A program made the position numbers and the translations under genes. This document shows, one piece after another, positions 1 to 54,112 of a DNA stretch of 64,000 bases. Under the pieces are notes generated by a model. The model was not told where the DNA came from. It was given only the letters and a program-made list of their open reading frames with translations, and did no database searches. The stretch is from IMG/VR virus record IMGVR_UViG_3300025141_008848, positions 62,001-126,000 of that record. One strand, 5' to 3'. Source of the DNA: a virus. How positions within the stretch are numbered: the stretch's first letter is position 1; each line of letters begins with the position of its first letter.

Positions 1-2
1 AT

Positions 3-416
3 ACAAACACCCTAGTTGTGGTAAATCAACCCTGGGTGGAATTACCCGACAACCCATTTGGACAACCAAAAATTAAAGCAAAAGGAGGAGAATCTTTATG
101 GTTAAACTCTACTTTAGTTTTTAGGTTTGGGAACCAAAAAAATGCAGGAACTACAAATATTTCTGCTGTTAAAGATAAAAGAAAAGTAAAATTTGCCACT
201 AGGACAAAAATAACTATTATGAAAAATCACGTAAATGGTTTAGGTTATGAGGATGGTAAAATTTTAATAACCCCACACGGTTTTGTTTCAGGCAGAGAAC
301 CGGTAGAAGAGAAAAAATCAATTGAAAAATATAAACAAGAATACGCTACATTTTGGAGTGACCAACTAGGTTCCGGTGGTGAATTCGACTTAAAAATAGA
401 AAAAGAAAATGACTAA
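3..416 (+). CDS. RecA/UvsX-like recombinase, C-terminal part (5' end outside window)
   Basis: Probable strand-exchange recombinase that coats single-stranded DNA in phage recombination and replication. The frame is open to the left edge, so the GTG at 18 is an internal codon and the N-terminal ATPase core is missing. What remains starts with a hydrophobic strand ending in Asn-Gln (LVVVNQ), as in the RecA strand that senses ATP. A GG-containing loop and a strand with S-x7-FG follow, then the basic segment KDKRKVKFATRTKI, matching the late core of RecA/UvsX, where a 'KNR' segment follows the DNA-binding loop. The acidic C-terminus (EKEND) is also RecA-like. It overlaps the next gene by 8 nt and lies near a helicase and exonuclease, as expected. 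A distant RecA-fold ATPase is the alternative. Confidence 0.7.
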   Translation, partial: TNTLVVVNQPWVELPDNPFGQPKIKAKGGESLWLNSTLVFRFGNQKNAGTTNISAVKDKRKVKFATRTKITIMKNHVNGLGYEDGKILITPHGFVSGREPVEEKKSIEKYKQEYATFWSDQLGSGGEFDLKIEKEND

Positions 417-843
417 ATTAAAAACAGGAGATAAAGTAAAAGTACACTATATAGGCACTTTAAAGGATGGTACTACATTTGATAATTCTAGAGACCATGG
501 AGATGGGTTAGAATTTATTATTGATGACGGAAAATTACTTAAAGGTTTTAATGATACAGTAAAAGAATTAAATGTTGGTGAAAAAAATACTGTAGCATTA
601 AAAGCAAAAGAAGCTTATGGTGAATACATTCCAGAAGCTATCATTACTGTAAAAAAGACAGAACTCCCACCAGATTTAAAGTATGATATAGATGGGTTTA
701 TTCACGGACAGGACGACCAAGGAAGACCAGTCCAAGGACAGGTAGTGAAAATCAATGAAGAGGACATTAATTTAAATATGAATCACCCACTAGCTGGTGA
801 AGATTTAAATTTTGAAATTGAGTTGTTAGAAGTAGTAAAGTAA
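409..843 (+). CDS. SlyD-like FKBP-type peptidyl-prolyl cis-trans isomerase
   Basis: Probable proline isomerase and folding helper, cytoplasmic. At 144 residues it has the SlyD layout: an N-terminal FKBP half (GDKVKVHYIGTLKDGTTFD), a flap-like region with G-(H/D)-G, then AYGEY, an inserted chaperone domain at about residues 70-120, and the closing FKBP strand NHPLAGEDLNFEIELLEV, which is nearly diagnostic. It lacks SlyD's His-rich metal-binding tail. The start ATG lies inside the end of the recombinase gene (8-nt overlap), so translation is probably coupled. An FKBP in a phage is likely host-derived. It may help fold the large proline-rich, Cys-rich tail proteins encoded downstream (inference). 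Confidence 0.9.
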   Translation: MTKLKTGDKVKVHYIGTLKDGTTFDNSRDHGDGLEFIIDDGKLLKGFNDTVKELNVGEKNTVALKAKEAYGEYIPEAIITVKKTELPPDLKYDIDGFIHGQDDQGRPVQGQVVKINEEDINLNMNHPLAGEDLNFEIELLEVVK

Positions 844-873
844 AAAAATTGTTTAACCTTTTAAAAATGTGTT

Positions 874-2326: not shown

Positions 2327-2328
2327 GG

Positions 2329-2335
2329 TATTTAT
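2329..2335 (+). promoter_or_regulatory. TATTTAT element upstream of the helicase gene
   Basis: TATTTATATTAA lies in the 26-bp gap before the helicase ATG (2353), 17 nt from it. It is preceded by GG like the copy before gp25. Confidence 0.4.
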
Positions 2336-2352
2336 ATTAAACAAATTTATAT

Positions 2353-3732: not shown

Positions 3733-3745
3733 TAAAGATTAAAAT

Positions 3746-6012: not shown

Positions 6013-6067
6013 TAATTAATATAATACAATCTTAAAATCAAAACCAACCATAAAGTAATATAGGAAG

Positions 6068-6074
6068 TATTTAT
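6068..6074 (+). promoter_or_regulatory. TATTTAT element upstream of the gp25 gene
   Basis: TATTTATTATAAAA begins 19 nt before the ATG of the first baseplate gene, inside the 74-bp gap that separates the replication and tail blocks. This is the most complete form of the recurring element and would be well placed to start transcription of the tail operon. Confidence 0.5.
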
Positions 6075-6086
6075 TATAAAAAAGAA

Positions 6087-6554
6087 ATGCCAACTCAAAG
6101 ATACGGTATAACATTCCCATTTGTAGATAGCTCTGAAGGTTTTTTTCTAGGCTTAAATACAGACATAGATAGTGAAGTAAGGTCTAACCTTGTTCATCTA
6201 GTTCTTACCCGTAAAGGTACAAGGTATTTTTTACCGGATTTTGGCACTAACTTACCCACCTATGTATTCGAACAAATGGATACGACTACTAAGCTATCTA
6301 TTGATAGAGAAATACGGGAGGCGGTAGATAAATATCTTCCTAGTCTAACAATTAATAATGTTGAGGTAAAAACATTAGAAGATTTACTAGCGGAAGAAAA
6401 ACTTAACGAACAAAATACTGATTTATCTATGGATGATGGAAATATGAGTTTTGTAGGGGAAGCCCAAAGAAACTATTCTATGAGAGTAAGAATTGATTAT
6501 ACCGCGGGTGACGGTGTATTGGAAAGTAAAGATTTTGTTATAATAGACTTATAA
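6087..6554 (+). CDS. Baseplate wedge protein gp25 (lysozyme-like GPW/gp25 family)
   Basis: gp25 sits at the inner ring of the contractile-tail baseplate and starts sheath assembly together with gp6. The protein has the family layout. A hydrophobic/aromatic N-terminus (PFVDSSEGFFLG) is followed by the long helix VRSNLVHLVLTRKGTRYFLPDFGTNL, with the conserved 'L..r.G.r.f.p.fG..L' core at about residues 35-60. Helix and strand segments such as TINNVEV close the protein. The length of 155 fits (T4 gp25 132). The next gene, gp6, starts 3 nt downstream, the order found in T4-like phages, P2 (W-J) and type VI secretion systems. Confidence 0.9.
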   Translation: MPTQRYGITFPFVDSSEGFFLGLNTDIDSEVRSNLVHLVLTRKGTRYFLPDFGTNLPTYVFEQMDTTTKLSIDREIREAVDKYLPSLTINNVEVKTLEDLLAEEKLNEQNTDLSMDDGNMSFVGEAQRNYSMRVRIDYTAGDGVLESKDFVIIDL

Positions 6555-6556
6555 TT

Positions 6557-8395
6557 ATGGCAGAAAAAAAAATAGCATACACAGAAAGAGATTTTTTAGG
6601 GGTTAGGAACGAACTTCTAAGGTTAACAAACACATATTATCCAGACCTAATTAAAAATGCTAACGACGCCTCCATATACTCCGTATTTTTAGACCTAAAT
6701 GCTGCAGTCGCAGACAACCTAAATTTTCAAATAGACAGAACCTTCCAAGAAACAGTCTTACAATATGCTCAAGAAAGAAGTTCTTTATATAATATAGCTA
6801 AAACTTACGGTTTAAAAATTCCAGGAAATAGGCCTTCGGTAACGGTTTGTGATTTATCTATCATAGTTCCAGTTTTAGGTGATAAAGAAGATTTTAAATA
6901 TTTGGGAACCATAAGGGCTGGAGGACAGTTTAGAGGTGGGGGACAAGTATTTGAATTAATAGAGGATTGTGATTTTTCATCTCAGTACAGTGCAGAAGGA
7001 ATACCAAATCAAACAAAAATACCAAATTATAATGCTAACGGGATTATACAGAATTATACAATTGTAAAAAAAGAAGTACTAATTAACGGAGTAACTAAAG
7101 TATTCAAAAAAGAAATTAATGACGCTGACAGTAACCCATTTTTTAAACTTTTTTTACCAGAAAAAAATGTTATAGGGGTAACCAGTGTAATACAAAAAGA
7201 CGGGTTAGGGTACCAAACAATACCTAGTACGACAGAATTTCTATCAACTACAGCAAATAAATGGCATGAAGTCGAAGCTTTAGCACAAAATGAAGTTTTT
7301 GTTGTAGACCCTTCTATGCCACCAGATACTCCAGGTATAAAAGTAGGTAAGTATGTTACTGTACCACAAAGATTTATTACTGAGTTTACACCAGAAGGAT
7401 TCTTCCACCTAACTTTTGGTAGTGGAAACCAAACTTCACAAGACTCACTAGATGGTTTTGCGTCAAAAGGTGTTAAATTAGATATGTCACAATTTTTGAA
7501 TAATATATCTTTAGGTAATGCTGTGAAAGGAAATAGCACTTTATTTGTACAATATAGAATTGGTGGTGGGAAATCATCCAATATTGGTGCTGGAGCAATA
7601 AACACAGTAGGTAATGTGGATTTTGTGGTAGCAGGACCTAGTCAACAGATAAACCAAACAGTAAAGAATAGTTTAGCTATAACAAATACTACATCAGCTA
7701 TAGGGGGTGCAAATCAAATGTCCCCAGATGAGATAAGAAATTATATAGCTTTTAATTTTACAGCACAGAATAGAGGTGTTACCATTAATGATTATGTTTC
7801 TAAGTTAAGAACAATGCCGGCTACATTTGGTGCACCTGCTAAAGTAGGGGTTACTGAAATAGAAAATAAAGTTAACCTAAATGTTTTATCTTATACACCC
7901 GACGGTAAATTAACATCATTAGTTAGTGAAACACTTAAGAACAATATAGCTAACTACCTATCTAATTATAGGATGTTAAATGATTATATAGTAGTTGGTC
8001 CAGCAAGAGTTATAGATGTGGCACTAAGTGTAGATTTAATTTTAGAAAAATCCGCTAATGAAGGTAGTATAGTTACTAACGTGATAACAAAAATTAGTGA
8101 GTATTTTGCAATAGATAGGTTAGAGCTAGGAGAAGACCTGACGTTAGGAACACTAAGGAGTTTTATAATGTCACAACCAGGTGTACTTAATATAACAGGG
8201 TTATATGTGTTTAATAAAGTTGGTGGAGAATACTCTCAATCCATCACTACACAACCATATATAAATGCTACCACCAAACAAATCGGGTTAATAGATGACA
8301 CTATTTATGCTCAACCTAATGAGATATTACAAATTCGTTTCCCAGACAAAGATATATCGGTAAGATTTAAAAAACCAAGTAAACCAGTATTTTAA
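6557..8395 (+). CDS. Baseplate wedge protein gp6 / baseplate J-like
   Basis: Forms the ring of the baseplate that dimerises around the hub and triggers sheath contraction. 612 residues (T4 gp6 660). The N-terminus has the typical gp6 pattern: YTERDFLGVRNELLRLTNTYYPDL, then VFLDLNAAVADNLNFQIDRTFQE (helices that embrace gp25). A second conserved part, ITNTTSAIGGANQMSPDEIRNYIAFNFTAQNRGVTINDY (about residues 375-415), matches the baseplate-J core 'a.GG.d.es.eeir...p......raVt..DY'. It starts 3 nt after gp25. Confidence 0.88.
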   Translation: MAEKKIAYTERDFLGVRNELLRLTNTYYPDLIKNANDASIYSVFLDLNAAVADNLNFQIDRTFQETVLQYAQERSSLYNIAKTYGLKIPGNRPSVTVCDLSIIVPVLGDKEDFKYLGTIRAGGQFRGGGQVFELIEDCDFSSQYSAEGIPNQTKIPNYNANGIIQNYTIVKKEVLINGVTKVFKKEINDADSNPFFKLFLPEKNVIGVTSVIQKDGLGYQTIPSTTEFLSTTANKWHEVEALAQNEVFVVDPSMPPDTPGIKVGKYVTVPQRFITEFTPEGFFHLTFGSGNQTSQDSLDGFASKGVKLDMSQFLNNISLGNAVKGNSTLFVQYRIGGGKSSNIGAGAINTVGNVDFVVAGPSQQINQTVKNSLAITNTTSAIGGANQMSPDEIRNYIAFNFTAQNRGVTINDYVSKLRTMPATFGAPAKVGVTEIENKVNLNVLSYTPDGKLTSLVSETLKNNIANYLSNYRMLNDYIVVGPARVIDVALSVDLILEKSANEGSIVTNVITKISEYFAIDRLELGEDLTLGTLRSFIMSQPGVLNITGLYVFNKVGGEYSQSITTQPYINATTKQIGLIDDTIYAQPNEILQIRFPDKDISVRFKKPSKPVF

Positions 8396-8511
8396 TAATC
8401 TTTACTATATTCCATTGTTAAGTACTTTTAGTTTTAATGGTGGAACTATTTATTTTATAGCCACTATAAAAATAATAAAATTATTTTATGGGGTAACAAA
8501 TAATATTAAAT
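8396..8511 (+). promoter_or_regulatory. 116-bp non-coding leader before the large hydrophobic-core tail protein
   Basis: One of the two largest gaps in the window. It contains TATTTAT at 8447-8453, far from the ATG (58 nt), and an 8-bp A/T stem, AAAATAAT (8469-8476), loop AAA, ATTATTTT (8480-8487). No G/C-rich terminator and no TAnnTTTG box are seen. If TATTTAT is a promoter, the mRNA would have an unusually long leader holding that hairpin. Confidence 0.4.
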
Positions 8512-11500: not shown

Positions 11501-12177
11501 GTGGTGATGCAGACCAGTCCGGAGCTTTAGGTGGACTAGAATATCCATCTCCTAATTTTACTGCTGGTACATATATACAACATGCAGTTAATGTTAATCA
11601 GTTAGGGGGTACCGCACCATTTAATCATACAATTTTATGGGAACCAATCCTTTTTACAGGCTCAACAGAAACCATTATGGACGGGCAAAATTTGATAGAT
11701 TGTGTGACTGTAGACTTATCCAAGTCCAGTCAATATGTCCCATTCTATCCTTGGCATATGAGAAGTGGTGCTCCAGGTGGGTTTGGTGATGCGTGGAATG
11801 ATTGGATTGGTACAATGGGTAAATATAGATATGTATATGGTGTACCAGGACCAGCAATGTCTATCTTACCTGCGTTATCAACGGGTAATGTAGCATGGGG
11901 AGACGATAGTAATATGCATCCCGTAGGAAATTTAGGTGGTGCTCCACCCCTTATTTTTGATGGGAATTACCAAAGCAATATGGGTAACCCACCATTTTCA
12001 GGTACGTCAGGTCAACTAGGGTTCCCAGATTACCCAGTATTAACACCAGCTAGTTCCAAAAGTGTTGTTTTTTCACAACCACTATTTTATTATTTTGGAT
12101 TAAGACCTGGACAAACATCTTTTAACACATTTGTAAGAAAATATATTGATGAAGAAATGGCAGATAACGTAATATAA
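8512..12177 (+). CDS. Large baseplate/tail structural protein with Ig-like N-terminus, hydrophobic core and Cys-rich region
   Basis: 1221 residues, in the position where T4-like phages carry gp7. Residues about 50-170 resemble a carboxypeptidase-regulatory/Cna-B-like beta-sandwich: GRVVANGGFGIPNAKVSIF, later NESGDFMIYGVPVGDQ. Residues about 515-583 form an almost unbroken hydrophobic stretch, long enough for two or three membrane passes. The next ~160 residues are rich in cysteine (CNADC, CEKCMC, CCEE, VCCHD). A hydrophobic core of this size is unusual for a virion protein. It might be buried in the assembled baseplate or inserted into a host membrane during DNA delivery (inference). The stop overlaps the next ATG by one base. 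The baseplate assignment rests on gene order only. Confidence 0.65.
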   Translation: MGQSFRVRTDINTSGAKDKNVTFELKQDFDLLEILSLSLTQQDVYTRMCADFGVVVGRVVANGGFGIPNAKVSIFVPLDTKDEENEVIKFLYPFKQPFDTDNEGKRYNLLSTEKTFNCHVNVGTFPVLNDVLNKQEVKYVYDKYYKYTVKTNESGDFMIYGVPVGDQTIIMDVDVSDIGCFSLLPEDFKIKGFPDSDFDGPRFRDDTSIDSLPQILNLQKSIDVRPFWGDEEFCRAAITRVDFDLSQTGFKLEPRAVFMGSTASDTDKDSVNNNCRPKAHMGDLCSLISKPGIIDCIRYTPFFENDPLAYPAYTAGGWGAPLGGEVPILERYYLEDGGRVIDNTGSFLIHLPMNLDYMITNELGEMVLSDDPTLGVATRTRVRFRIRPEQAKGGARQRRIGSHLVPNIREFYQHWAGDSNGDWPGIEPSSYTFSVKYSDYHPWAQRNLMPGGEDVFYDMTFNRVYTYAQFHDHIKHGGRRQFVGIKEILPEMDQQCSTTAMFFPINSAVRSPNLMVFLWMFLIDFLGLFYQLIAYFVTILAAFLSLILAIVLFIIWVLCIMWCFLYCLYISIWGVTIFRMTWILPSSAAPPDICGQVNIQGFGCNADCAFFGLRMGMVLFKLRQTKYPECEKCMCRTNVGSISTPDSMRYLTEGPNRWPCPEGFPGDPLAQTGASTGTSCVPQCPPGNGATGDDFGGKFQHDCCEESDDIRVCCHDNYGYNSDGSMNAQSVDEKDGIAGGGCYVKIICFATGCIDENFNMTVLREWTRREKIAVALCNGIMNYFWENNWVNGFLYQFQFNAKLEYNPTTESYATNSKWCKKLTYLHPTQHTFYYRSTPFQVTGIGKNDGNFIGDTDGVYKPWWMIGGGNATSDLHAKGDMDRHILFPTTIVDMGSRNQCIQQICLDPKFNEECSVTDQIGSTTFQDITNLVSDIYNIKMMYSKASMSTFFPRPEYEIGGDVAQALMQNCMLGVYGYEANVGDIGCECDYDLDISTGGGDADQSGALGGLEYPSPNFTAGTYIQHAVNVNQLGGTAPFNHTILWEPILFTGSTETIMDGQNLIDCVTVDLSKSSQYVPFYPWHMRSGAPGGFGDAWNDWIGTMGKYRYVYGVPGPAMSILPALSTGNVAWGDDSNMHPVGNLGGAPPLIFDGNYQSNMGNPPFSGTSGQLGFPDYPVLTPASSKSVVFSQPLFYYFGLRPGQTSFNTFVRKYIDEEMADNVI

Positions 12178-13988
12178 TGAGTAACGAAAAAAATATAAGA
12201 ATAGTAAGAGGAGAATCTAGATTTGCTGGGTCATCCAATGTAGAAATGGTTGTGCACCCTTTCCTAGAATCTACTACGAAAGAGTTAACACAAGGAGACA
12301 GAAACCTAGTTTTAGATTTAAGAGACCAATTCGATTTTGAACGGGAGTATTGCACAAATTATAGGCTCCATGGTAAAATAGATATTTTATATAATAATAT
12401 TGTTACAGGAGAAACAAATGAACAAGATTTTAAAACATCCATGTATTTTTTACCTGACTGGACAGGGTGTCCACAAGTAGGGGGGGTACCACCAGGAAGT
12501 TGTGTTGGATTAACCCCAGCTTCTACGTTCTCATTTATGCCAGAAAAAAGATTTGGTATTAATGCTAGTTTAAATGGTTGGGAACCATTATTAGCATATC
12601 AGGATAATTGGGTACAATATATTTCTTATATTCACGATGCGGATAGTGGACAAACAATGGAGTACTATATAGACTATGGAACCTCATCAGGACTGAGTTT
12701 CATTGCAGGAGACGGAATCCCATTCCAACCCACAACTAATACCATAGACGGGAAAGAAGTTTTACAATTAATTACACCAGTACCACATGGTATACTACCT
12801 GGGGAATATGTTGAGTTACAATCTACAGCTTTAGTATTTGGGGGTGGAGCAACATTAATGGTTGATGTTCCCATAACTTCTATATTCAACCCTGTTATAA
12901 TGGGCACAAGTACACCCGCACCTCCACAAAACACATTTAAAGTAGATTCGTTAGGTAATAATTTAGCAAACTCGGAAAATTATATCATAAATGTTCAAAC
13001 CAACGGGCTAGACGTAGCATCTATACCAGCTAATGGTCCAGTAGGGACCTTAAAAAGAATAATAAATATAGATAACCCTAATGAAACAAGGTCAGAATAT
13101 TATACACAGATTCACAAATTAATAACTAACCCTAACGATTATACTTTTGATAGAACTGGATTTGAATTGGGAATATACGCTAAAAAAGGTAGAGTATATA
13201 GAGCAAAGAGAACACCAGATAATATAGAAAAAACTATAATAAAAGAACAATACGAATCTTATTTATGGAACTCAAACCAAAATATAAACATTGATAATTA
13301 TTATGATAATTTAAACCGCCCTTTAACTGATGTGTATTTAACCATTTTAACCACAAATAGAAATTTAATTTGGGACTGGAATCCAGGTGGGGTGTCTAGT
13401 CCAGCTGGTTTTGGTTGGGGTTGGAATTTTAAGAAAAATGGGACAGTTGACCCATTTGTAGATAATACACTTAATCCCATAAATTTAACACAAAACGGTA
13501 CTTTGGGTGTTACTCCATTACCAGTTAGTGGAAGTACTTTTAGAGGTGCATTTGCGGAATACAACCCATTTGAATTAAAAGAAAGAGTAATCTCTAATAT
13601 AGGTCATTCTCTAAAGTTTAATAGGGACACATTATATATGTCAGGAGGAACACCATATGATTTTGTGCCCACCATTTACAAATACCAACCACACCATAAA
13701 ATATCTTTAAAAAAATTCTCTAATTATATAAGTTATAATGATAGTTTATTTACATCACCCCAGTATGCTGTTTATTCTTCATCAGAGGAAACATTTAGGT
13801 GGAGAGAAATTTTACCTATTGAATTTTATGAAGATGGTACAAACGGTGTTAGTTATCCCTATCTAAATGATGCACATTATCCGTACCTAAATCTAGAATT
13901 TACAATAGAGGCTGTAGGACCCGCATTAATACCATATAGTTCTGGTAGCATAAACATATTATCTGAATACACTGATGGCTGTCAATAG
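12177..13988 (+). CDS. Putative tail/baseplate structural protein
   Basis: 603 residues, not recognised by sequence. It looks like a beta-rich virion protein: many Thr/Asn/Gly turns, aromatic strands, and no signal peptide or membrane segment. The N-terminal part is more charged (RGESRFAGSS, LRDQFDFEREYC). It sits between the hydrophobic-core protein and another structural gene with tight overlaps on both sides (1 nt upstream, 14 nt downstream), so it is part of the same assembly operon. By order it lies where T4 has gp8, but I see no direct match. Confidence 0.55.
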   Translation: MSNEKNIRIVRGESRFAGSSNVEMVVHPFLESTTKELTQGDRNLVLDLRDQFDFEREYCTNYRLHGKIDILYNNIVTGETNEQDFKTSMYFLPDWTGCPQVGGVPPGSCVGLTPASTFSFMPEKRFGINASLNGWEPLLAYQDNWVQYISYIHDADSGQTMEYYIDYGTSSGLSFIAGDGIPFQPTTNTIDGKEVLQLITPVPHGILPGEYVELQSTALVFGGGATLMVDVPITSIFNPVIMGTSTPAPPQNTFKVDSLGNNLANSENYIINVQTNGLDVASIPANGPVGTLKRIINIDNPNETRSEYYTQIHKLITNPNDYTFDRTGFELGIYAKKGRVYRAKRTPDNIEKTIIKEQYESYLWNSNQNINIDNYYDNLNRPLTDVYLTILTTNRNLIWDWNPGGVSSPAGFGWGWNFKKNGTVDPFVDNTLNPINLTQNGTLGVTPLPVSGSTFRGAFAEYNPFELKERVISNIGHSLKFNRDTLYMSGGTPYDFVPTIYKYQPHHKISLKKFSNYISYNDSLFTSPQYAVYSSSEETFRWREILPIEFYEDGTNGVSYPYLNDAHYPYLNLEFTIEAVGPALIPYSSGSINILSEYTDGCQ

Positions 13989-14943
13989 AATACAAATAAA
14001 AGCTTCTTTAAGTGATAAATCTGTCACTATACCTATAGGTCAAACTTTTGAAGAAATAGGCCAAGAAGAATTAATCAAAACTTGGGAAGAAGTAGAATTA
14101 CAAGATAATATAAATGTTATACAAGATTATGAAACTACAAGATATGCATATAAAAATAATGCAGCTCCAGTGGGCTCAGGAGGTAGTAATACAATATCGT
14201 ATAAATTTCATTTTTGGGATGCTGCAAATCAATGGTATACTGGCACAGGTGGAAACCCCCATACATTTAATGTTGTTGGGTACCTAAACAAAGATTTAGC
14301 AAAACCAAAGAAGGCATTTACTAAAAGCTTTTTTAAATTTGATTTTTACGACTCACCTAAAAAAGAAGAACAAAAAATAATGTTTACCAATATAATGCCA
14401 TTAAATAATTGTATAAAAGTAACAACAGAAGTTGACGAACTAGAAGACCCGATAGAGTACTACTCACAAATCGCAAATGACATTATTCCACCTACCTATG
14501 GGGTATACGTACCAACAGCGATATTAAGTCCATTAAAAGGTAAAAATGAGAATTTCTATATACAATGGTTAAAAGATAGAGAATTGACACCCATTGATAC
14601 TTTTTATATGTCTTGTAAATTCTTTAATGCAAAAACTGGTAAGGTAACGAATATGATAAATGACAACCCAACACCAAGTCAAATTAATAATGGGTTAGTT
14701 CTTAATAATTTAGATTGGTTTTATTATAAAGTAAAACTTTTCATTGGACCATCCAATACTTCCACAATTATACCAAAATATAGGTATGTGGTGACTAAGT
14801 TCAATGAAGTCGCGATGCTCACCAATACTGGTGGGGTTGCGGGGACAGGACTTCCAGGTGGGACACCTGCAGACGCTGTACCAAACACACCACAAGTACC
14901 AAATGCGGTACCAATAAAATTTTATGAATATGTAAACCCTTAA
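13975..14943 (+). CDS. Putative tail/baseplate structural protein
   Basis: 322 residues, not recognised. The start ATG is inside the preceding gene (14-nt overlap). The N-terminus IQIKASLSDKSVTIPIGQTF is followed by an acidic helix (EEIGQEELIKTWEEVEL). The middle contains FKFDFYDSPKKEEQKIMFTN-type strands, and the tail is rich in Pro, Gly and Ala (GGTPADAVPNTPQVPNAVP), like the flexible end of a fibre-attachment or connector protein. It is followed after 3 nt by the giant Cys-rich gene, so it may be the anchor for that protein (inference). Confidence 0.5.
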   Translation: MAVNRIQIKASLSDKSVTIPIGQTFEEIGQEELIKTWEEVELQDNINVIQDYETTRYAYKNNAAPVGSGGSNTISYKFHFWDAANQWYTGTGGNPHTFNVVGYLNKDLAKPKKAFTKSFFKFDFYDSPKKEEQKIMFTNIMPLNNCIKVTTEVDELEDPIEYYSQIANDIIPPTYGVYVPTAILSPLKGKNENFYIQWLKDRELTPIDTFYMSCKFFNAKTGKVTNMINDNPTPSQINNGLVLNNLDWFYYKVKLFIGPSNTSTIIPKYRYVVTKFNEVAMLTNTGGVAGTGLPGGTPADAVPNTPQVPNAVPIKFYEYVNP

Positions 14944-14946
14944 TAT

Positions 14947-17900
14947 ATGGAAGTATATAAATACCGAATAAAAAGAACCAACCCAAGTATATATTGGACA
15001 GTGCCCTGTACAGGAGGGACAGATTTTTGGCCTATAAACTTGAGTACTAATTGTTCTGGAATAACCATGTTTAATTCTACCTTTAGTCAAGTTAGGGATG
15101 CATTAGAGGGGGATATGAATAATTTCCCACAAGAACTAACAGGGTGCTCTATAGCTAATCCATGTGTGATTTTAAATGACACAGTAGTGTTACCAATGTT
15201 CCCTTCCCCAGACCCATTTTGTATAGATTCCTCATCTCACCCATATATTTTATTTACGGGGCTAAATCTAATCCAAATGGGGGTCCAAACATTTACGGGT
15301 GAAAGTTATAATGATATGATAAGTGTTTTTGACTTAACCAACTCAACACTATCACAACCACTAAACACTCAAACATCGGCTAATCTAATGCCGAATTCTA
15401 ATTCTTGTTTTTGTCAAAACCCTTTAGGTACAAACTTAAACCAAATACCTATTCTATTAGACCAAGATTTTAATGATATTGGTCACTACGATATTTGGGA
15501 TGGGAATATTGGACAAAAAGATATTTTTTCTAATTTTGTTGTTACAGCGACTACGACTGCGGGAAATAAAATAAAAATATTTAACTCTACAGATTTTGGT
15601 TATTATAAAACATTTCAGGATTCACCATATACTATAAATTGGGGTGATTGTAATTGTAATTGTCCTGTCCCCCCATGTGTTAATTCATTTGGTGACCCTT
15701 GTTGTGAAACTTTACAATTTCCTAATTTGACAAATCCGGTAGACCATACTTATGGTGGGGTTGGTTCTCGAAAAATTACCATAACCCATGAAAGTCCATG
15801 GGGACCTACTTCGGTGTCACAAATGATTACTGTCCCCTTCATGAATTATAACGCATTATTAGCGACAGGAAATATACCTTCTTTTGTGTCCCCAGTTATT
15901 GGACCTAATGGTCCAGTTGGAACTAATTCTTATTTTGGAGCTTACCCATCTACCCCATTAGATTCCGGTACGGATATAATGCAATATAGTGGAATGTCAC
16001 CTATCTTTGCTGGGGGAAATAATAATGACTGTTTTGATGTCACAGGAAATACCGAAAGTTTATTAGGAGCATTCCAAAACTATACAACATCAAGTACTGC
16101 GGGCTTACCACCAGGATACCAACAAGGTATCACAGTACCTCTTATGGGGCAGGTTTTAAATCCAATCACTAATACATTAGTACAAGGAGTTTCTGGTAAA
16201 ATAACACAAGTAAATGCACAATATACGGCATATACAATTAGTATTGGAACCAACACACCAATAACCTTTTATGATTTTAGTAATGGTGTTACTCTCTATG
16301 AAGCTGTAAGTTGCGGGTTAGACGCGTTTGCGTTTGCAGCATTTGATTGTGTTAAATGTGAACTAGGGGATTGTACATATTGTGAAACAAAAGATGAATA
16401 TATTGATAGGATTACATTTTTACCAGAATCCATAACGTTTAATGCCCAACATGGGGAGTGGTTACCTACTACTAATTATGTTGTTGGGGATATTGTTTTT
16501 GATAGTACTTGGGGGGAATGTTGTTGTTATATGGCAGTAAAAGATATAACACAAAGCGCTACTACTCTTTCCCCATGGGCAGGAGTAAAACCAACAGATA
16601 CATTCCAAGGTGTGTGGTGGTATAATGGACAACCAACTGAACATATTTGGGAAGCGTGTACGCCAGAATGTGAAAGTTGTCCTGATTATACCGCAATACC
16701 TTGTTATGACCCAACAAACTGGTTAAACGCATATCCTACATTTGGTCCTCCAGGACCTGCAGGGGTTTATAGTAATGGTAACAATTATACTGCAGGAACA
16801 TTTACGGTTAGTCAATTCGGTAATTGTTATAGAGCATTACAAACAGGAACACTACCACCACCAACAGGACTAACTAATAACGCATATTGGGATTACATAG
16901 GGTGTTCTAGTTGGATATGCCCACCAGTATCCGCTTTGACAGCTGGAACTGTAGCGTGTGAACTGGTTCCTGGAACTGGGTCTACCAGTACTGGACCATG
17001 TACAACTATAGGTTATACCTCATACAATGATTGTTTTGACGATTTTTTAAATGGTGAGTGTTGTGAAGATAGGTATATATGTACTGACCAGTATTCATGT
17101 CAAGGGTGTACAGGGATAACTTCAGCTCATCCATTATATAATGACCCAAGTGGTTTAGACCCCTTACAAGGTCCAGTTTTTGACTCTGAGCTAGATTGTA
17201 ATGCGTGGTGTAACCCACCAGCATTTTCGTGTACTACTCAGATAGCGTCATCTAATAATTGTTGTGTTTCACTTTCATGTGCTGAGGATAACTTAAATGG
17301 AACCCCAGGATATTATAGTAGTGTGGTATTACCCGTTATTGCTGCCGCTGGTACAAACCCAGCACCTTTCTCAAATATGATTGATTACATAGCGTCTAAT
17401 TATGCTTTATGGTTCGTAAGCCCTCTTACAACACCTAACCCATACGACATTAACGATTGTAATTTAGGTGTGGTAGGGATTGCTACTGCATGTTGTGATT
17501 ATACAATATGGGTTTATAATTGTGAAGATGGGTGTATTCCCGCATTTGCTGGTGCAGGGTGGCCAACACCAGGTGATTGTTGGGCTGCTAATCCACAATG
17601 GGCGGGTTATGGGACAACCCCATGTGGTTGGATATGTGACCCTGTTTGTGAACCCTGTGTCGAGGTATACCAACTTGGTGTGGGATACCCCTACACCCCA
17701 CAAGGATTACTTGATTGTGAAATGAATTGTTCTTGTGTTACTGACTGTTACATATGTGACTGTACCGCAACAACAACAGGGGTAAATATAAATTGTGATT
17801 TATACCACGACCCTATTACAGGTCTAGCCGGTTGTCCCCATTGGCCACCAAATGAAGGTATCCCAGTAAACCCAGGAGACCCATTAACCTACTTATACCA

Positions 17901-20900
17901 AACTAATTGTCTATCCGCGTGTACTTGTGAAGGTGGTATTGATTGCTTTATATCCTCTATTGATGGAACACAGATGGGTGGATGTAGTTCATACCCAAGT
18001 TTGTGGCATATGGCACAACAAAATGCAACATGGAGTTTAGGGTCACCAACAGACGCTGCGGGTAACCCTACGGGGTATACCACTGTAGAAGAATGTTGTT
18101 TGGCCACCGAGTGTTGTTGGGCTGTATGTGAAGAAGACCCAGCTGTTTATGACCCTGGTTATTTTGGTATTACCCCTTCAGTTAATCCAGCGTTACAAGG
18201 TGGTGGTGGTGGTACTTACCCATGTTGGTGGTATTCACAGTCAGTACCAGATGTGTATAGTGATTTCGGGGGTGGACAACCTTCTAATTGTTGTAGTCCC
18301 TTATATATTAATAATGCAGGAGCTAATACGGGATTAGCTGGTTGTATTCAAGACCATCCAAATCACCCATATTGTGATATGATAGATTGTATAAATTCAT
18401 TATGTCCACAACCCGCCCCTTCTAATGAAATGATGTGTTGTGTCCCACCAGAAAACTCATGTATATGTGCATGTGATACTTGGATAGCACAAAATGGTAG
18501 TATATTAGTGCCTAGTTGGGAAGGACCTTGGAACGTAGGAATTTATTTAGAAGGAGATACTGTAAGTTACGGTGATGGTAATACACCAGACTGTTGTTGG
18601 ATATGTACATGTCCATATGACCCATTATCACAAGTATTTGGGAGTGGTGTGTTTGATTGTAGTAGTTCACCACCAGATGATGGACCATACAGTAATGGTC
18701 AACCCAACTGTTGGCAAACTTGTGAAAGGTTACCAGCTACGTTCCCTTCTCCACCATCAAATATAGTAGGTGACCCATGTGGACCTTGTAGTGGTCATGT
18801 TCCACCTGTAACGTATTCTTGTAGTACGGCAGGTTGTTTAGCTTCTACTTGTGTTTTTAATCCAGGTGGGATGAACCCGTCTATATGGGCAACACAAATG
18901 AATTGTTATGATAATCCTATGTGTGACACACCAGCATATCCAGGATATGACCAGTGTAGAGCAGATTGTTATTGTGCAGACCCAAATCCACTTGCTGAAG
19001 TTACAAGTTGTACCGTATTACAAGATTATTTAAATGATATATACTCCCCAGGGGCTCTGGGAGGTGTTAATGGCTGGATTGCAGGTACCGGATGGTACTC
19101 AACTTGGCCAATGACTTATCCACCAGTACAACCAGGACTTATATTTAATACTAGTGGTTCATTTTGGTGGCAATATTCATCGTTCGATGATTGTGTGTTG
19201 GGGGTAAATGCTGGTGTAGATTGTTGTGACACCTCAGGATTTACATACGCTTGTGATGATACATGTAATTGCCCAACGGTAAATGGAAATCCATGTGTTG
19301 GTGGTACAGGATGTTACGTAGTAACGAGTGGTCCTCCAGGACCTTTCACATCAATGGGTCAATGTCAAGCCTGGTGCACATGGGAATGTGACCCAACAGG
19401 ACCACAAATATGTATATTTAATGCATTATCGATAGCAGCTACTACATATCCATCGGCATTAGCATGTAGCGTCGCTAATACTAATTGTGAATGTGTTAAT
19501 GGTACTGTAGAGTACTGGTGTGATTGGGCAGGTGCAGACGCAGGATATTATAACACATTGGGAGCAGTCCCTTGTGTAGACAGTGTATATATGTCCAGCC
19601 AAGTTCCAGCATATCAAGCTATGGCGATAGGACAAGGAGCTACAGGACCTGCAGACCCGGCAAATAATTATCATGACGCGGTAGTCTTAGGGAATAATCC
19701 TACGGGACAAGGATTCCCAACAATACAACAATGTCAAGAAAAGTGTAGATTCTGTTGTGATTGTGCACCTCCAGGTTCAGGTATTTGTGATTTATGTGGA
19801 GACCCCGCTGTCACAATATGTAGTTGGGGTGACCAATTCTGTAGTGCAGGTACTGCCTGTCAATATGGAAGTAGTTACCTATCACCTTATGACTGCCAAC
19901 AAAATACAACTCCATATCCTTGTGCAGCACCGATTACTGAATATTGTTGTCATGCAGTAGATGGGTGTCTATCATATATGGGGGCGTATGTAGCGGGGAC
20001 CAACCCAGTTACAAGTGATGGTGTGGGTTGTGTAAGTTTCCATACCATAGCAGGATGTGATGGGGAATGTAATTTTGTATGTGGGGATTGTACACCAACC
20101 GGAGGACAATGTGATTGTACTTTTGTAAATACATTAACACCTAATTGTCTTGCACCTTATCCATTTACTACGATGGCAGACTGTCAATTCTATCTTAGTA
20201 CAGCTGTCAACCTTTTATATGATGCTGGGTCTTGTTGTAGATGTTATGATTGTTTTTTAAATAGTCCTATAACATATTCCGCATATGATGTGGGAAGTAG
20301 TACATGGATAACAATGAGTACCCCTATACCTACGTTTACCACTAGTGCACTAGCATGGGTAGCAGGTACCCAATATAATACGGGAGATGTTGTTAGTGAA
20401 CTTTTTGATGGTGATGACTGTTGTTATGTTTGTGTTTGGGGAGCTAATGAAACAGGAGGTATAACAACTAACTGGACATGGAATCCTTCTTTCTATTATA
20501 CAGCGTATGTTAATGATGTTGGGTTAGGTAACCCAGTTTGGCCAGGTGGTGGTACTGGAAGTTTGGCGTGGATACCTTGTGACGCAGGATGTGTAAATGT
20601 CCAAATAATTACATATAATTGTATTCCAGGAGCAATCTTCGATAGTTGTGAGTATGATACAAATGGTAATCTAATGAATTTAATAGTACCAACCACAGTA
20701 TTTTTATCTCAAAATGATGTAGTAAGGAGATTAGCGGACCCACTGGGGACACCAAATCTTCAATCAACTAATATATTTACAATTAAATTTCCATATGGTG
20801 GATGGCCAGTAGGTTATCCAGCAAACCCTTGTCTATATAATGGATTTCCCCTAGCTATTGCGGGAGGTTTTCTCAGCATAGATAGTGATATGGCAATGCA

Positions 20901-23900
20901 ATACGGCATCCCACAAGATTATGTATCCTGGTCCCAACTTATTGCAGCTCTGGTAAGTGTAGGTGTTGTGGATTACAGTGGTACCCTGGTAAGTCTAACT
21001 AGTACTTTTGACGAAGTATGTGAAGCAATATGGCTAGCAATTGGGTCGATGCCAGGTTCACTACCAAAGTGTATTACCATTACGATAGACCCATGTGAGT
21101 GTACTCAAAGTACATGTGATTGTGTAGCAGTTAATGGACCAGGAGGACAATTCACTAATCTTGGAGATTGTCAATCACTTCTAAATAACGTACCTTGTTG
21201 TGGTACCTGGTATTGTCCAGGACAAACTAACTGTACCTGCGTATTCCAACCTAATATATTAACTGGGTTTGCCACCCAAATAGATTGTTATAACGCTGTT
21301 AATTGTTGTGAAATACAAGAACCAGAATATGCCTGTATAGTAACAGCTCCATCTCCATCATTCGGAATACCTGATGTGTGTGACTGCATACAAACACCAG
21401 GAGGACCTTATACCGGACCAAACGCACTACTTGATTGTCAAACTGACCCAAATACTTGTTGTTCAGGTACTACAATGCCAGACTACTGGAAATGTGAATT
21501 ACAACCTGGGGGTAACTGTCTGTGTGTACTAGACCCCTCACCAACGATTAATTCTTTTACTAGTCTATTTGATTGTCAATCAACACCAGTCTCCAATTGT
21601 TGTTGGACAGGAGTAAGCTACACACATTATTGGGAGTGTATAGATTTCGGAGGTACCATAGGGTGTGAGTGTGTACAAACATCAACAGGTGCATGGCCTA
21701 CATCTGGAGACTGTGAAGCTCAACAAAGTCTATGTTGTTACAGTGGGGTTACAAAATGGGATTGTAAAGACCCGGGGAATGGTAATTGTACGTGCGTACA
21801 ATCAATATTTGGATTCTATACCAGTTTATATAATTGTGAACATAGTATACCTGCAGTAGTCCCACACCCAAACTGTTGTGAAAAAATTTATGGAAATTGT
21901 AAAACATGTGATGGAGCACAGCTAATCCATACAACAGGTAAACATTACGGTCCCCTAGGTGGGCTAGGTATAGCTTCTACAAATGGTGTAACCCTAGCAC
22001 CAATTGTGGATAGGGGTTTATGGGTTACAGGAACGAATAACTACGTATACTTAGATGTGGTAGAAGACCCATTGGATGGTTGTTGTTACGCACTTATTCA
22101 AACGACAAATCATAGTGGGGTTAATATGTTAGGGCCAGGAAGCCCACTTCTAACCTACTCACCAAGTATTGTGTATAATAACCACATTAACGGTTATTTT
22201 GCTGATGGTTCATATAATTCAGCTCCAGGTCCATGTGCAACAATACAACAAGTTTTTTGTCCATGGTGGCCTTGTGACCCTAGTTGTGTAGGAACAGTAA
22301 AAGGGTATGATTGTGATAATTGTCCCGGAACGTGTGTTTGTAACCCTAATAATACCGCAGGTGCTACGTTCCAAGGTCCAGGAGCATTAGCAGCGTGTCA
22401 AGCAGTTTGTATACAAGGGTGTGATGATTGTGCAGTTAGTTTAGCTGGTTATCTCACCGGACCAGTACAGTATGAGGGTGTATGGAGTGCTACTTTTAAT
22501 CCTCCATGGCATGTGTATGATATTAATGATTGTGTGGTAGACCCTGCAGACAACTGTTGTTATTGTTGTGTTGAAGACCCTACCGTTCTCAATCCGTGTA
22601 CACCAAACACACCACCACAACTATGTAAAGTGGCTGGGGAGGTATGGCATCCATTCCCAATATGTAAGTGTATGAAGCCAAATATACAACAATCCAAATC
22701 GAAAGCTAATCCGTGCATACCACAACCTTGTGCTCCTAATGAAACTTGGTTCGGAAACCCAATATGTGATTGTGTCCCGAACGGTCCTGGTGGTTCAGGT
22801 CCTGGTGGTTCAGGAAATATTAACGGATGTGCCGCCAAACATCAACCATCACTCAATCTTGGTGTGAGTGTTGGTGGTGTTGGGTCTATACCAGTAACAT
22901 GGGCAGATTGTAAACAAGATATAAATGGAGACCCATGTGGTCCTGGTGGCTCGAATCCAATTTGCAAGGACTGTGGTCCTGGTGCGATTACCTTCGATTA
23001 CTATGACCACAATACCAGTACCTGGCAGACGGCTAATATCACTGCCACACCCACCCTCCCAATTCCAGTATGGACACCAGGCACTTACACACCTACCGGT
23101 CAACAGGGTAACGTTGTTATGCATAACGGGTGTTGTTTTGTTGTTTGTAACACACACTCAACACCGACAACATATCTCAACCTATCTCCGACAGATGATT
23201 ATATGGAATACTTATGGTGTATGTCACAACACCCTGGAGGAAATCCACTTGATTGGCCAACACTAATGTCTGCCTTTGGTCAAAATCCTATGGCACAAGT
23301 TGTATATTTCCCATGTGATAAAGATTGTGTACCAAGTGTCCCTATAAGAAACAAGAGATATGATTGTAAACGACAAGCAACGTTGGGGAACCCAAATAAT
23401 ATGGGATGCGTACCAAACCCAAATGGAGTTTATGTAGATTTACCAACATGTCAAATTAACTGTAACCAACAGGAAGAATGTAAACAATGTTGTCAAAATA
23501 CTAATTGGGAACCAGGATTATCTGATGCAATGTCAATGACGAGCTCGTATACACTCCTACAATCAAACGCAAATCCGTGTGATTGTGAATTTTGGTTAGG
23601 TGTTGGTTGGGTTCCAGTACCACTTTCAAAATGTAAGGTACGAGATGGTTGTGTACAAGTTAAGGTATGTGACTCACCTTATGTGTGGGCAGGACAACCG
23701 ATATGTGATTGTGTTCTCCCAAACGATATCCCACACGAGGACTGGGCCCATGATGATGGTTGTGTACAAGATAAGGAATGTGAGAATGGTTGGACCTGGT
23801 CATGGAAATTATGTGACTGTGTTATTGAAACCAGAGAAAGATGTATGGAAAGAGAATGTGCAGCAGGAAAATTTTGGGATAAGGAAGTATGTAATTGTGT

Positions 23901-23922
23901 ACCACATAAAAAAATACCCTAA
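14947..23922 (+). CDS. Giant modular cysteine-rich tail/adhesin protein (2991 residues)
   Basis: I know no named family for the whole protein. Well over 200 cysteines (about 100 in the last 960 residues) are arranged in repeated modules. Residues about 233-300 look PKD-like (NWGDC ... HTYGGVGSRKITITHESPWG). Residues 2050-2312 hold six tandem copies of a 38-50-residue unit, (Y/W)xC...CxCV...(Y/F)xSxxxC...CC; divergent copies occur throughout. Seven segments read 'Y..GD.V......CCY..' (near residues 503, 609, 1192, 1801, 2359, 2511, 2708), recalling CBM5/12 chitin-binding folds. The end has C-x4-C..W....C-D-C-V units (near 2590, 2902, 2939, 2966). A GPGGS linker repeats at about residue 2613. 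There is no signal peptide, so it is made in the cytoplasm, as virion proteins are. Likely a disulfide-hardened receptor-binding appendage. Confidence 0.7.
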   Translation: MEVYKYRIKRTNPSIYWTVPCTGGTDFWPINLSTNCSGITMFNSTFSQVRDALEGDMNNFPQELTGCSIANPCVILNDTVVLPMFPSPDPFCIDSSSHPYILFTGLNLIQMGVQTFTGESYNDMISVFDLTNSTLSQPLNTQTSANLMPNSNSCFCQNPLGTNLNQIPILLDQDFNDIGHYDIWDGNIGQKDIFSNFVVTATTTAGNKIKIFNSTDFGYYKTFQDSPYTINWGDCNCNCPVPPCVNSFGDPCCETLQFPNLTNPVDHTYGGVGSRKITITHESPWGPTSVSQMITVPFMNYNALLATGNIPSFVSPVIGPNGPVGTNSYFGAYPSTPLDSGTDIMQYSGMSPIFAGGNNNDCFDVTGNTESLLGAFQNYTTSSTAGLPPGYQQGITVPLMGQVLNPITNTLVQGVSGKITQVNAQYTAYTISIGTNTPITFYDFSNGVTLYEAVSCGLDAFAFAAFDCVKCELGDCTYCETKDEYIDRITFLPESITFNAQHGEWLPTTNYVVGDIVFDSTWGECCCYMAVKDITQSATTLSPWAGVKPTDTFQGVWWYNGQPTEHIWEACTPECESCPDYTAIPCYDPTNWLNAYPTFGPPGPAGVYSNGNNYTAGTFTVSQFGNCYRALQTGTLPPPTGLTNNAYWDYIGCSSWICPPVSALTAGTVACELVPGTGSTSTGPCTTIGYTSYNDCFDDFLNGECCEDRYICTDQYSCQGCTGITSAHPLYNDPSGLDPLQGPVFDSELDCNAWCNPPAFSCTTQIASSNNCCVSLSCAEDNLNGTPGYYSSVVLPVIAAAGTNPAPFSNMIDYIASNYALWFVSPLTTPNPYDINDCNLGVVGIATACCDYTIWVYNCEDGCIPAFAGAGWPTPGDCWAANPQWAGYGTTPCGWICDPVCEPCVEVYQLGVGYPYTPQGLLDCEMNCSCVTDCYICDCTATTTGVNINCDLYHDPITGLAGCPHWPPNEGIPVNPGDPLTYLYQTNCLSACTCEGGIDCFISSIDGTQMGGCSSYPSLWHMAQQNATWSLGSPTDAAGNPTGYTTVEECCLATECCWAVCEEDPAVYDPGYFGITPSVNPALQGGGGGTYPCWWYSQSVPDVYSDFGGGQPSNCCSPLYINNAGANTGLAGCIQDHPNHPYCDMIDCINSLCPQPAPSNEMMCCVPPENSCICACDTWIAQNGSILVPSWEGPWNVGIYLEGDTVSYGDGNTPDCCWICTCPYDPLSQVFGSGVFDCSSSPPDDGPYSNGQPNCWQTCERLPATFPSPPSNIVGDPCGPCSGHVPPVTYSCSTAGCLASTCVFNPGGMNPSIWATQMNCYDNPMCDTPAYPGYDQCRADCYCADPNPLAEVTSCTVLQDYLNDIYSPGALGGVNGWIAGTGWYSTWPMTYPPVQPGLIFNTSGSFWWQYSSFDDCVLGVNAGVDCCDTSGFTYACDDTCNCPTVNGNPCVGGTGCYVVTSGPPGPFTSMGQCQAWCTWECDPTGPQICIFNALSIAATTYPSALACSVANTNCECVNGTVEYWCDWAGADAGYYNTLGAVPCVDSVYMSSQVPAYQAMAIGQGATGPADPANNYHDAVVLGNNPTGQGFPTIQQCQEKCRFCCDCAPPGSGICDLCGDPAVTICSWGDQFCSAGTACQYGSSYLSPYDCQQNTTPYPCAAPITEYCCHAVDGCLSYMGAYVAGTNPVTSDGVGCVSFHTIAGCDGECNFVCGDCTPTGGQCDCTFVNTLTPNCLAPYPFTTMADCQFYLSTAVNLLYDAGSCCRCYDCFLNSPITYSAYDVGSSTWITMSTPIPTFTTSALAWVAGTQYNTGDVVSELFDGDDCCYVCVWGANETGGITTNWTWNPSFYYTAYVNDVGLGNPVWPGGGTGSLAWIPCDAGCVNVQIITYNCIPGAIFDSCEYDTNGNLMNLIVPTTVFLSQNDVVRRLADPLGTPNLQSTNIFTIKFPYGGWPVGYPANPCLYNGFPLAIAGGFLSIDSDMAMQYGIPQDYVSWSQLIAALVSVGVVDYSGTLVSLTSTFDEVCEAIWLAIGSMPGSLPKCITITIDPCECTQSTCDCVAVNGPGGQFTNLGDCQSLLNNVPCCGTWYCPGQTNCTCVFQPNILTGFATQIDCYNAVNCCEIQEPEYACIVTAPSPSFGIPDVCDCIQTPGGPYTGPNALLDCQTDPNTCCSGTTMPDYWKCELQPGGNCLCVLDPSPTINSFTSLFDCQSTPVSNCCWTGVSYTHYWECIDFGGTIGCECVQTSTGAWPTSGDCEAQQSLCCYSGVTKWDCKDPGNGNCTCVQSIFGFYTSLYNCEHSIPAVVPHPNCCEKIYGNCKTCDGAQLIHTTGKHYGPLGGLGIASTNGVTLAPIVDRGLWVTGTNNYVYLDVVEDPLDGCCYALIQTTNHSGVNMLGPGSPLLTYSPSIVYNNHINGYFADGSYNSAPGPCATIQQVFCPWWPCDPSCVGTVKGYDCDNCPGTCVCNPNNTAGATFQGPGALAACQAVCIQGCDDCAVSLAGYLTGPVQYEGVWSATFNPPWHVYDINDCVVDPADNCCYCCVEDPTVLNPCTPNTPPQLCKVAGEVWHPFPICKCMKPNIQQSKSKANPCIPQPCAPNETWFGNPICDCVPNGPGGSGPGGSGNINGCAAKHQPSLNLGVSVGGVGSIPVTWADCKQDINGDPCGPGGSNPICKDCGPGAITFDYYDHNTSTWQTANITATPTLPIPVWTPGTYTPTGQQGNVVMHNGCCFVVCNTHSTPTTYLNLSPTDDYMEYLWCMSQHPGGNPLDWPTLMSAFGQNPMAQVVYFPCDKDCVPSVPIRNKRYDCKRQATLGNPNNMGCVPNPNGVYVDLPTCQINCNQQEECKQCCQNTNWEPGLSDAMSMTSSYTLLQSNANPCDCEFWLGVGWVPVPLSKCKVRDGCVQVKVCDSPYVWAGQPICDCVLPNDIPHEDWAHDDGCVQDKECENGWTWSWKLCDCVIETRERCMERECAAGKFWDKEVCNCVPHKKIP
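22783..22812 (+). repeat. 15-bp tandem duplication encoding a Gly-Pro-Gly-Gly-Ser linker
   Basis: GGTCCTGGTGGTTCA occurs twice in a row (22783-22797, 22798-22812), and a near copy (GGTCCTGGTGGCTCG) appears at about 22939. It encodes a flexible linker between the Cys modules of the giant tail protein. Confidence 0.85.
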
Positions 23923-23930: not shown

Positions 23931-24572
23931 ATGGAAAAAATAAGTACACCACTAGAAAAAGAATGGGGTAAGGTTTTTAAATTTGAAGTAGGCCCCATTA
24001 AAGTAACTAAAAAACTTTATAGGCCTACCATTAAAAGATTTGAAAAGTGGTTAAATATAATAGAAAAAGAAGAGTATTTTAATAAATTTGATTTCCTACT
24101 AACAGGTTCTTTCCCTAACTATATTAATAATAATCTACCTTGGCAAACTTGGGATATAGATATTATTTTAATTGATAACGGAAATAATAGTTTAGAATTA
24201 ATTAGAGATACACTGGTACATCTATCTACAATAGCATTAGAACAATGTGATTTTTATATAGATGTTTATTACCAGAATAAAAAAAATGTGGAATTAAACA
24301 AAGTTTGTTATAGAGGAGGTATAAAAAATTGTAAACCTTACAGTTTTGAAAAAGTAGGATTATCTTACGCACCTCATGTTAAAAGAGACGGTGTTATAGT
24401 ATCTAATTGGAATATTGATGAAGAGGTTATAAATGGATTATGGGTTACCAGACTACAATTTCCTTCCGCAAAACAAATCCAAAGAATCAATACTGGATTT
24501 AAATATGATGACGAGATTTACTTAAGTGAGTACAAAAAACATTTTCCACTAATAGAAACAGTAGATAAATAA
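23931..24572 (+). CDS. Putative nucleotidyltransferase-fold protein
   Basis: 213 residues. The motif LLTGSFPNYINN (about residues 57-68) followed by TWDIDIILID (about residues 74-83) is the hG(S/G)...D-h-D signature of the nucleotidyltransferase (Pol beta) fold. FYIDVYY (about residue 115) can supply the third acidic residue. I see no family-specific motif for a tRNA enzyme, antibiotic-modifying enzyme or toxin MNT. It sits alone in the tail block between the giant Cys-rich gene and a small unknown gene. It might modify a virion or host component, but that is only inference. A chance match to the motif cannot be excluded. Confidence 0.5.
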   Translation: MEKISTPLEKEWGKVFKFEVGPIKVTKKLYRPTIKRFEKWLNIIEKEEYFNKFDFLLTGSFPNYINNNLPWQTWDIDIILIDNGNNSLELIRDTLVHLSTIALEQCDFYIDVYYQNKKNVELNKVCYRGGIKNCKPYSFEKVGLSYAPHVKRDGVIVSNWNIDEEVINGLWVTRLQFPSAKQIQRINTGFKYDDEIYLSEYKKHFPLIETVDK

Positions 24573-24601: not shown

Positions 24602-24823
24602 ATGGGACTGAGTGAAGTAAAAGTAACGGGATGTATATTACCTTTAACTAAATTAGAGGTTTTAATGAATATGGTACAAAGACCAGAAGTAAGGTCAAAT
24701 ATATTTATTGAAAGAGGTAAAGTGACAGTTTTTGAGAAAGCACAAAGGTTAGGACAAATAAACAGTATAGGTGAATTAGAATTACACGGATACGGATACT
24801 ATAAAGTAGAAAAACAACCATAA
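24602..24823 (+). CDS. Small hypothetical protein in the tail block
   Basis: 73 residues, not recognised. Predicted as one helix (PLTKLEVLMNMVQRPEV) followed by short strands (NIFIERGKVTVF, LELHGYGYYKVE). It has no membrane segment and no Cys pairs. It is the first gene after a TATTTAT element and sits 3 nt before a structural gene, so it is probably a small virion component or assembly factor. Confidence 0.55.
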   Translation: MGLSEVKVTGCILPLTKLEVLMNMVQRPEVRSNIFIERGKVTVFEKAQRLGQINSIGELELHGYGYYKVEKQP

Positions 24824-53761: not shown

Positions 53762-54112
53762 ATGAAATTAAATACAGAAAAATACAAATTAACTTTAATG
53801 ACAGAGGACATATGTCCTGATTGTATTGAGTTAAAAAAGAAACTAACGGAATTAAAAATACCTTTCATAAATAAATCAATAACCGCTAATAATGGGGTGG
53901 TGAGTAATACAGATTTCGATAAAGATAAATCCGCAAATAGATGGGAATTTATTGATTTATCTAAAGAATTCCCAACAGAAATTAAATATTCTCCTGTAAT
54001 GGTGATAGAAAATGTGACGGGAGAACAAGAAGTTTTTAGTTTAGAAGGGGAAAATGGTTTTAAAAATACAGATGAAGCAGTAAATATTATAACTGAAAAC
54101 TACTGTATCTAA
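53762..54112 (+). CDS. Glutaredoxin/thioredoxin-like protein
   Basis: 116 residues. The strand YKLTLMTEDICPDCIELKKKL carries the redox motif CPDC (about residues 18-21) at the start of a helix, as in glutaredoxins. YSPVMVIEN supplies the cis-Pro loop (SPV, about residue 79). An insertion of about 20 residues (NGVVSNTDFDKDKSANRW) separates the two halves, making it slightly larger than typical phage glutaredoxins (85-100). It might reduce the B12 reductase or guard cysteines of tail proteins before assembly (inference). Confidence 0.78.
   Translation: MKLNTEKYKLTLMTEDICPDCIELKKKLTELKIPFINKSITANNGVVSNTDFDKDKSANRWEFIDLSKEFPTEIKYSPVMVIENVTGEQEVFSLEGENGFKNTDEAVNIITENYCI

Follow-up and report, generated by a model that had tools for sequence, protein, structure and literature searches.

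Phage virion proteins are synthesised in a reducing cytoplasm, and cysteine is usually scarce in them. A literature search returned one precedent for the use of disulfides in a tail, the Agrobacterium phage Milano, a myovirus whose tail parts are disulfide-hardened in the finished particles (PMC10811340, PMC10491603). Cysteine makes up 2.1% of the Milano structural proteins, and this phage demonstrates that a contractile-tail virion can be hardened by disulfides (PMC10811340). The same search gave no published description of the protein reported here, a giant product of a phage tail locus with 8.5% cysteine. Disulfide-hardened tail parts would be common to both systems. Conversely, Milano employs a few interface cysteines in ordinary proteins, whereas the giant is a single protein with modular arrays. 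The locus does not display a Milano-type spread of interface cysteines, as a gp6-like baseplate protein contains 0.25% and other flanking tail proteins 0.7–1.0% cysteine; of the proteins compared between clades, only the giant and a 1,221-aa neighbour are enriched.

The nearest annotated cultured relatives found for the gp6-like protein are those of Flavobacterium phage immuto and Microcystis phage Mel-JY01 (25–27% identity), but neither phage revealed a giant or cysteine-rich homologue at the corresponding locus. Comparison of the compact relatives of the giant (see below) with immuto or Mel-JY01 tail proteins gave nothing better than E 0.01. No relative of the giant turned up among 50,697 cultured-phage records, and queries with the module block, the CBM region and the compact form likewise gave no hit in cultured phages. 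Against known tail fibre and spike families, the protein had no PHROGs hit (E 1e-3) and no Pfam hit (0.1), and its head fragment matched just one weak PHROG of unknown function (E 0.015). None of the cultured phages searched has a described part of this kind, in line with an earlier note on this DNA, whose author knew of no described phage fibre of this type.

Results and discussion

Genomic setting

The window, i.e. the whole stretch of 64,000 nucleotides analysed here, covers positions 62001–126000 in the record of an uncultured virus, which is 128,462 bases long. Its main features are collected in Table 1.

Table 1 Features of the window (coordinates in the window; residues of the giant protein)
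Feature	Coordinates	Strand	Evidence
FKBP-type prolyl isomerase	409..843	+	Pfam FKBP_C, E 3e-18
gp25-like baseplate wedge protein	6087..6554	+	PHROG baseplate wedge, E 1e-16
gp6-like baseplate wedge protein (independent tree marker)	6557..8395	+	PHROG baseplate wedge, E 1e-17
Giant gene, 2,991 aa, 255 Cys	14947..23922	+	Open frame; intact homologues of 2,440–2,966 aa elsewhere
Head domain, residues 164–473	15436..16365	+	14-compact-protein profile matches residues 166–472, E 2e-34; alignment A3
PKD-like domain, about residues 228–298, within head domain	15628–15840	+	Sub-threshold PKD hits in relatives
CBM5/12-like module 1, residues 503–571	16453..16659	+	A3 profile vs PDB, E 7e-4; family HMM, E 4e-18
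CBM5/12-like module 2, residues 606–669	16762..16953	+	Family HMM, E 4e-5
Two divergent Cys mini-modules, residues 1421–1524	19207..19518	+	Iterated module HMM, E about 1e-7
Divergent Cys mini-module, residues 1573–1611	19663..19779	+	Iterated module HMM, E 9e-6
CBM5/12-like module 3, residues 1803–1878	20353..20580	+	Family HMM, E 1e-14
Six tandem six-Cys mini-modules, residues 2048–2315	21088..21891	+	Profile; AF2 of one module
CBM5/12-like module 4, residues 2357–2443	22015..22275	+	Family HMM, E 1e-12
Divergent Cys mini-module, residues 2441–2500	22267..22446	+	Iterated module HMM, E 1e-8
CBM5/12-like module 5, residues 2511–2570	22477..22656	+	Family HMM, E 2e-10
CBM5/12-like module 6, residues 2707–2790	23065..23316	+	Family HMM, E 5e-8
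Divergent four-Cys mini-module, residues 2788–2855	23308..23511	+	Iterated module HMM, E 2e-6; pattern
73-aa companion gene, compact C-terminal domain	24602..24823	+	Compact profile positions 318–376, E 2e-22
Thioredoxin/glutaredoxin-like CPDC protein	53762..54112	+	Pfam Thioredoxin_2, E 0.003 (below cut-off)

The gp25-like and gp6-like baseplate genes lie upstream of the giant gene (6087–8395), and a tail-tube gene was found in the wider record. This combination identifies a contractile-tailed phage and places the giant within the tail block; the order of the surrounding tail and baseplate genes is conserved between contigs. A Bacteroidota host is plausible, considering the relation to immuto, dockerin-like hits in one relative, and the presence of GCTDP-type repeats also in two Flavobacteriales MAGs.

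Several further genes of these records deserve mention. A 213-aa gene without family match (23931–24572) separates the giant gene from its 73-aa companion and occurs in part of the giants, being missing e.g. from L019 and L035. A 260-aa tail-block protein (38764–39546) has 12 cysteines and scores above the Pfam cut-off for a type I dockerin domain (E 1e-7), and a 1,049-aa protein from the same phage record (L009:4626–7772; 42 cysteines, 4%) lacks any Pfam or PHROG match. In L008 (record 1–20000), inspection of N-terminal sequences by eye revealed a long minus-strand stretch of sugar-nucleotide and glycosyltransferase-like genes, which suggests glycan modification by the phage.

Cysteine content and conservation

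The earlier note had described a 9-kb frame with well over 200 cysteines, a content regarded as far beyond normal for a phage virion protein. Both observations hold: the frame is open from 14947 to 23922, and its 255 cysteines among 2,991 residues, distributed along the full length, compare with means of 1.41% in other tail-block genes and 1.12% in non-virion genes of the window. Full-length giants were found on 20 further contigs (2,440–2,966 residues, 181–251 cysteines). Close homologues are 2,902–2,919 aa long with 246–251 cysteines, more distant ones 2,440–2,966 aa with 181–243. The intact full-length versions in separately assembled contigs, together with a dN/dS of about 0.22–0.33, exclude the assembly artefact against which the note had cautioned.

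Among four close full-length giants, 94% of the cysteine columns are invariant, followed by tryptophan with 45%. In a set of 18 diverse giants, 71% of majority-cysteine columns are invariant vs 2–25% for other residues. Judged from these alignments, the conservation of cysteine is not explained by chance or composition. The parity of cysteine changes between sister proteins (20 even and 15 odd clusters) gave no clear signal.

The cysteine mini-module

Six tandem modules, placed at residues 2050–2312 in the earlier note, were recovered at residues 2048–2315 (E 1e-11 to 1e-14) by a profile that was seeded from the same six modules. The accompanying remark on many divergent copies is fair, an iterated profile having located five more (at residues 1421, 1477, 1573, 2441 and 2788), but no more than 11 copies can be detected in total. 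Much of the cysteine falls outside stretches recognisable as mini-module. The consensus pattern is [YW]xC ... CxC ... G.[YF]..(L).C ... CC; in four-cysteine variants, one cysteine of CxC and one of CC are absent jointly. Both optional cysteines are present in 25 mini-modules, neither in 33, and four are mixed, including two overlapping sub-matches and one GCTDP-type repeat. For divergent representatives, the corresponding table reads 10, 0, 1 and 12 (Fisher p 1e-5, a value that overstates independence because the copies are related). That these residues occur together or not at all supports disulfide pairing, and a bond between the two would be the simplest cause of their joint presence and absence.

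AlphaFold2 modelled one mini-module with a mean pLDDT of 91.7 from an alignment of 35 rows, predicting a hairpin and a short helix (strands 2–6 and 13–17, helix 26–30). No PDB sequence matched at E up to 10, and Foldseek searches of the PDB and BFVD gave nothing better than E 4, the 39-residue query making Foldseek insensitive. In these searches, the mini-module showed no sequence or fold match to known small cysteine-rich folds (Kunitz, EGF, knottin and others). A resemblance to Kunitz domains, i.e. a hairpin followed by a Y.S...C...C helix, was considered and dropped, as the PDB sequence and Foldseek searches gave no support. No module was found in 299 genomes from the order to which a Flavobacteriales MAG belongs; applied to viral records, this profile was positive in 4/5. 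Mini-modules were also found in other large phage genes, in the records of L054 (191858–191950) and L060 (121435–121518), where they sit in open frames of 1,741 and 1,389 aa.

CBM5/12-like, PKD-like and head domains

The assignment of carbohydrate-binding-like modules relies on a profile of residues 164–583 built from 13 relatives (alignment A3). Searched against the PDB, this profile matched the CBM region of chitin-oligosaccharide deacetylases, a sequence match to the CBM5/12 family (E 7e-4). The likeness to the Vibrio chitin-oligosaccharide deacetylase extends over about 50 positions (E 7e-4 to 2e-3) and includes a W..Y..GD.V..CCY..W pattern. Conversely, the modules of the giant score under the Pfam gathering threshold, have a vicinal CC in the core strand and end in W..C. 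All Pfam CBM hits are sub-threshold (E 0.001–0.07), as is the CBM_5_12 hit in the orthologue P0004 at the position corresponding to module 3 (E 0.016, below cut-off). With the CBM family HMM, six copies were picked up in the window protein, as against zero in the compact proteins L076 and L089.

Sub-threshold Pfam hits in relatives comprise PKD, CBM_5_12 and dockerin, with PKD confined to L021 and L028. The PKD-like domain shares the WGDG and HTY..(G)..Y.I.I pattern with PKD domain proteins, and most sequences of alignment A3 other than the giants have WGDG; in giants only, a cysteine-rich insert replaces the WGDG loop. The head domain was modelled poorly (pLDDT 58.5), and a search for its relatives in bacterial and archaeal genomes found none.

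Compact, intermediate and giant states

A scan with the head profile returned at least 523 related stretches, the best 80 of which were retained. Related phages show three states at one locus. In the compact state (L074, L076–L081 and L083–L104, all uncultured phages), a single gene encodes 359–396 aa with 0–4 cysteines. The intermediate state consists of a head-and-array gene (777–1,253 aa, 28–66 cysteines) and a second cysteine-rich gene, the C-terminal end of which is the compact C-terminal domain. In L020–L029, this second gene directly follows the head gene and has GCTDPxAxNYNP repeats. In the giant state, a gene of 2,440–2,991 aa is followed by a separate gene of 73–77 aa.

When the window giant is compared with the profile of 14 compact proteins, the match is confined to residues 166–472 (profile positions 69–324); the remaining C-terminal part corresponds to the 73-aa companion, and the same split holds in 21/21 giants examined. 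Thus, some 2,500 residues lie at the point where a protein that is continuous in compact phages has been split. The giant apparently arose when a very large array of modules was inserted into a small tail protein without cysteine, a form retained by related phages. Compact proteins resemble the giant in their homologous head and C-terminal domains and in operon position, but they are encoded by one gene, lack the array and, in those tested, gave no CBM match. In the tree of the gp6-like protein, giants form one clade (SH-aLRT 99) adjoining the intermediates, and the compact forms fall outside. The likely direction is growth, starting from a compact protein and leading to the giant, albeit not proven given the long outgroup branch in this tree.

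The gp6-like, 603-aa and 307-aa flanking proteins are low in cysteine in all three groups. As cysteine does not rise between clades in these neighbours, the enrichment is not genome-wide. The 1,221-aa neighbour (8512–12177) has 36 cysteines, and its homologues average 1.25% in compact vs 3.2% in giant records, a difference that marks it as a possible partner of the giant. The L007 homologue contains a membrane-like hydrophobic stretch.

Candidate helper genes

The CPDC thioredoxin-like protein was detected in 10/10 giant-clade records tested. Of 13 other records, only L021 matched clearly (E 1e-6) and L085 marginally (E 0.006). FKBP occurs in 9/10 giant, 5/7 intermediate and 0/6 compact records. 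It is possible that the former acts as a helper of the giant protein and the latter as a folding helper. Since giants form one clade and records may be fragments, co-occurrence amounts to a single correlated event at best. Ribonucleotide reductase was ruled out as an explanation of the CPDC-protein pattern, being present in 14/15 records. In the compact-clade records L103, L087 and L089, the match to this enzyme is interrupted by between one and three in-frame stop codons; an intron, an insert or splitting of the gene may be the cause.

Proposed function and alternative readings

Anatomy, homology, conservation and clade structure of the giant are shown here, as are the pairing in occurrence of its optional module cysteines and its CBM similarity. 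On this basis, we consider it probable that the giant is a baseplate-attached, disulfide-hardened, carbohydrate-binding adhesion arm, where oxidation, particle location, binding and extended shape are inferred. Head (residues 164–473) and 73-aa protein would together be equivalent to the compact tail protein and anchor the giant to the particle. In the 2,500 residues of the array at the joint, small modules stapled by disulfides would be combined with CBM5/12-like carbohydrate-binding modules. Following the Milano precedent, the protein would be synthesised reduced in the cytoplasm and oxidised after lysis, yielding a tough, multivalent arm that may bind glycans on the host envelope or on particles. 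The fibre of cysteine repeats proposed in the earlier note survives as regards the tail-locus gene, its extreme and conserved cysteine content and its repeated small modules. Still, the compact relatives, the split 73-aa gene and the additional modules of CBM5/12-like and PKD-like type shift the picture to what would rather be a protein of the baseplate region that has been opened up and bears an array of adhesive modules.

The array could instead be a non-adhesive, cross-linked structural coat or whisker that stiffens baseplate or tail, its CBM-like modules serving for packing only. In Milano, disulfides connect subunits within the sheath, the baseplate and the tail spikes (PMC10811340), the 1,221-aa neighbour is cysteine-enriched in giants too, and odd cysteine totals (255, 251, 243) would permit interchain bonds. 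Milano, however, relies on a few interface cysteines in ordinary proteins, and the cysteines of the giant sit inside small repeated modules, show internal co-occurrence and accompany carbohydrate-binding-like modules, so that we regard a coat or whisker as unlikely.

Coordination of zinc or iron, with metal-stapled instead of disulfide-stapled modules, is less probable again. A reducing cytoplasm favours thiols, and CxC and CC runs are known from metallothionein-like proteins as well. Yet the optional cysteines come as a pair and not as a set of four, histidine accounts for just 1.1% of the protein, no metal-binding Pfam family is matched, and the neighbouring modules are of extracellular types. 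Slightly more remote still is a giant that is not part of the particle and is freed at lysis, e.g. to coat glycans or block competitors in soluble form. Its CBM content would suit such a role, but no secretion signal is obvious by eye at the N-terminus (MEVYKYRIKRTNPS); moreover, head and 73-aa gene together correspond to a compact protein whose gene lies centrally in a baseplate/tail operon.

Beyond the adhesion arm preferred here, the locus might represent a new class of phage appendage, a broader proposal that we put forward tentatively and hold to be somewhat doubtful. A split compact baseplate-region protein would serve as the platform for a 2,500-residue array, in which a new disulfide mini-fold would alternate with carbohydrate-binding modules; oxidation would take place outside the cell, and phage-encoded FKBP and thioredoxin-like folding helpers would have been gained in parallel.

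Conclusions

In this lineage, a single tail-locus protein carries nearly 200 or more strongly conserved cysteines. Its living relatives form a graded series from zero to 255 cysteines, and the family as a whole offers a natural experiment on how modules accrete. How and why phages make disulfide-armoured extracellular adhesins becomes directly testable with this family, which also offers what would be a new small disulfide module.
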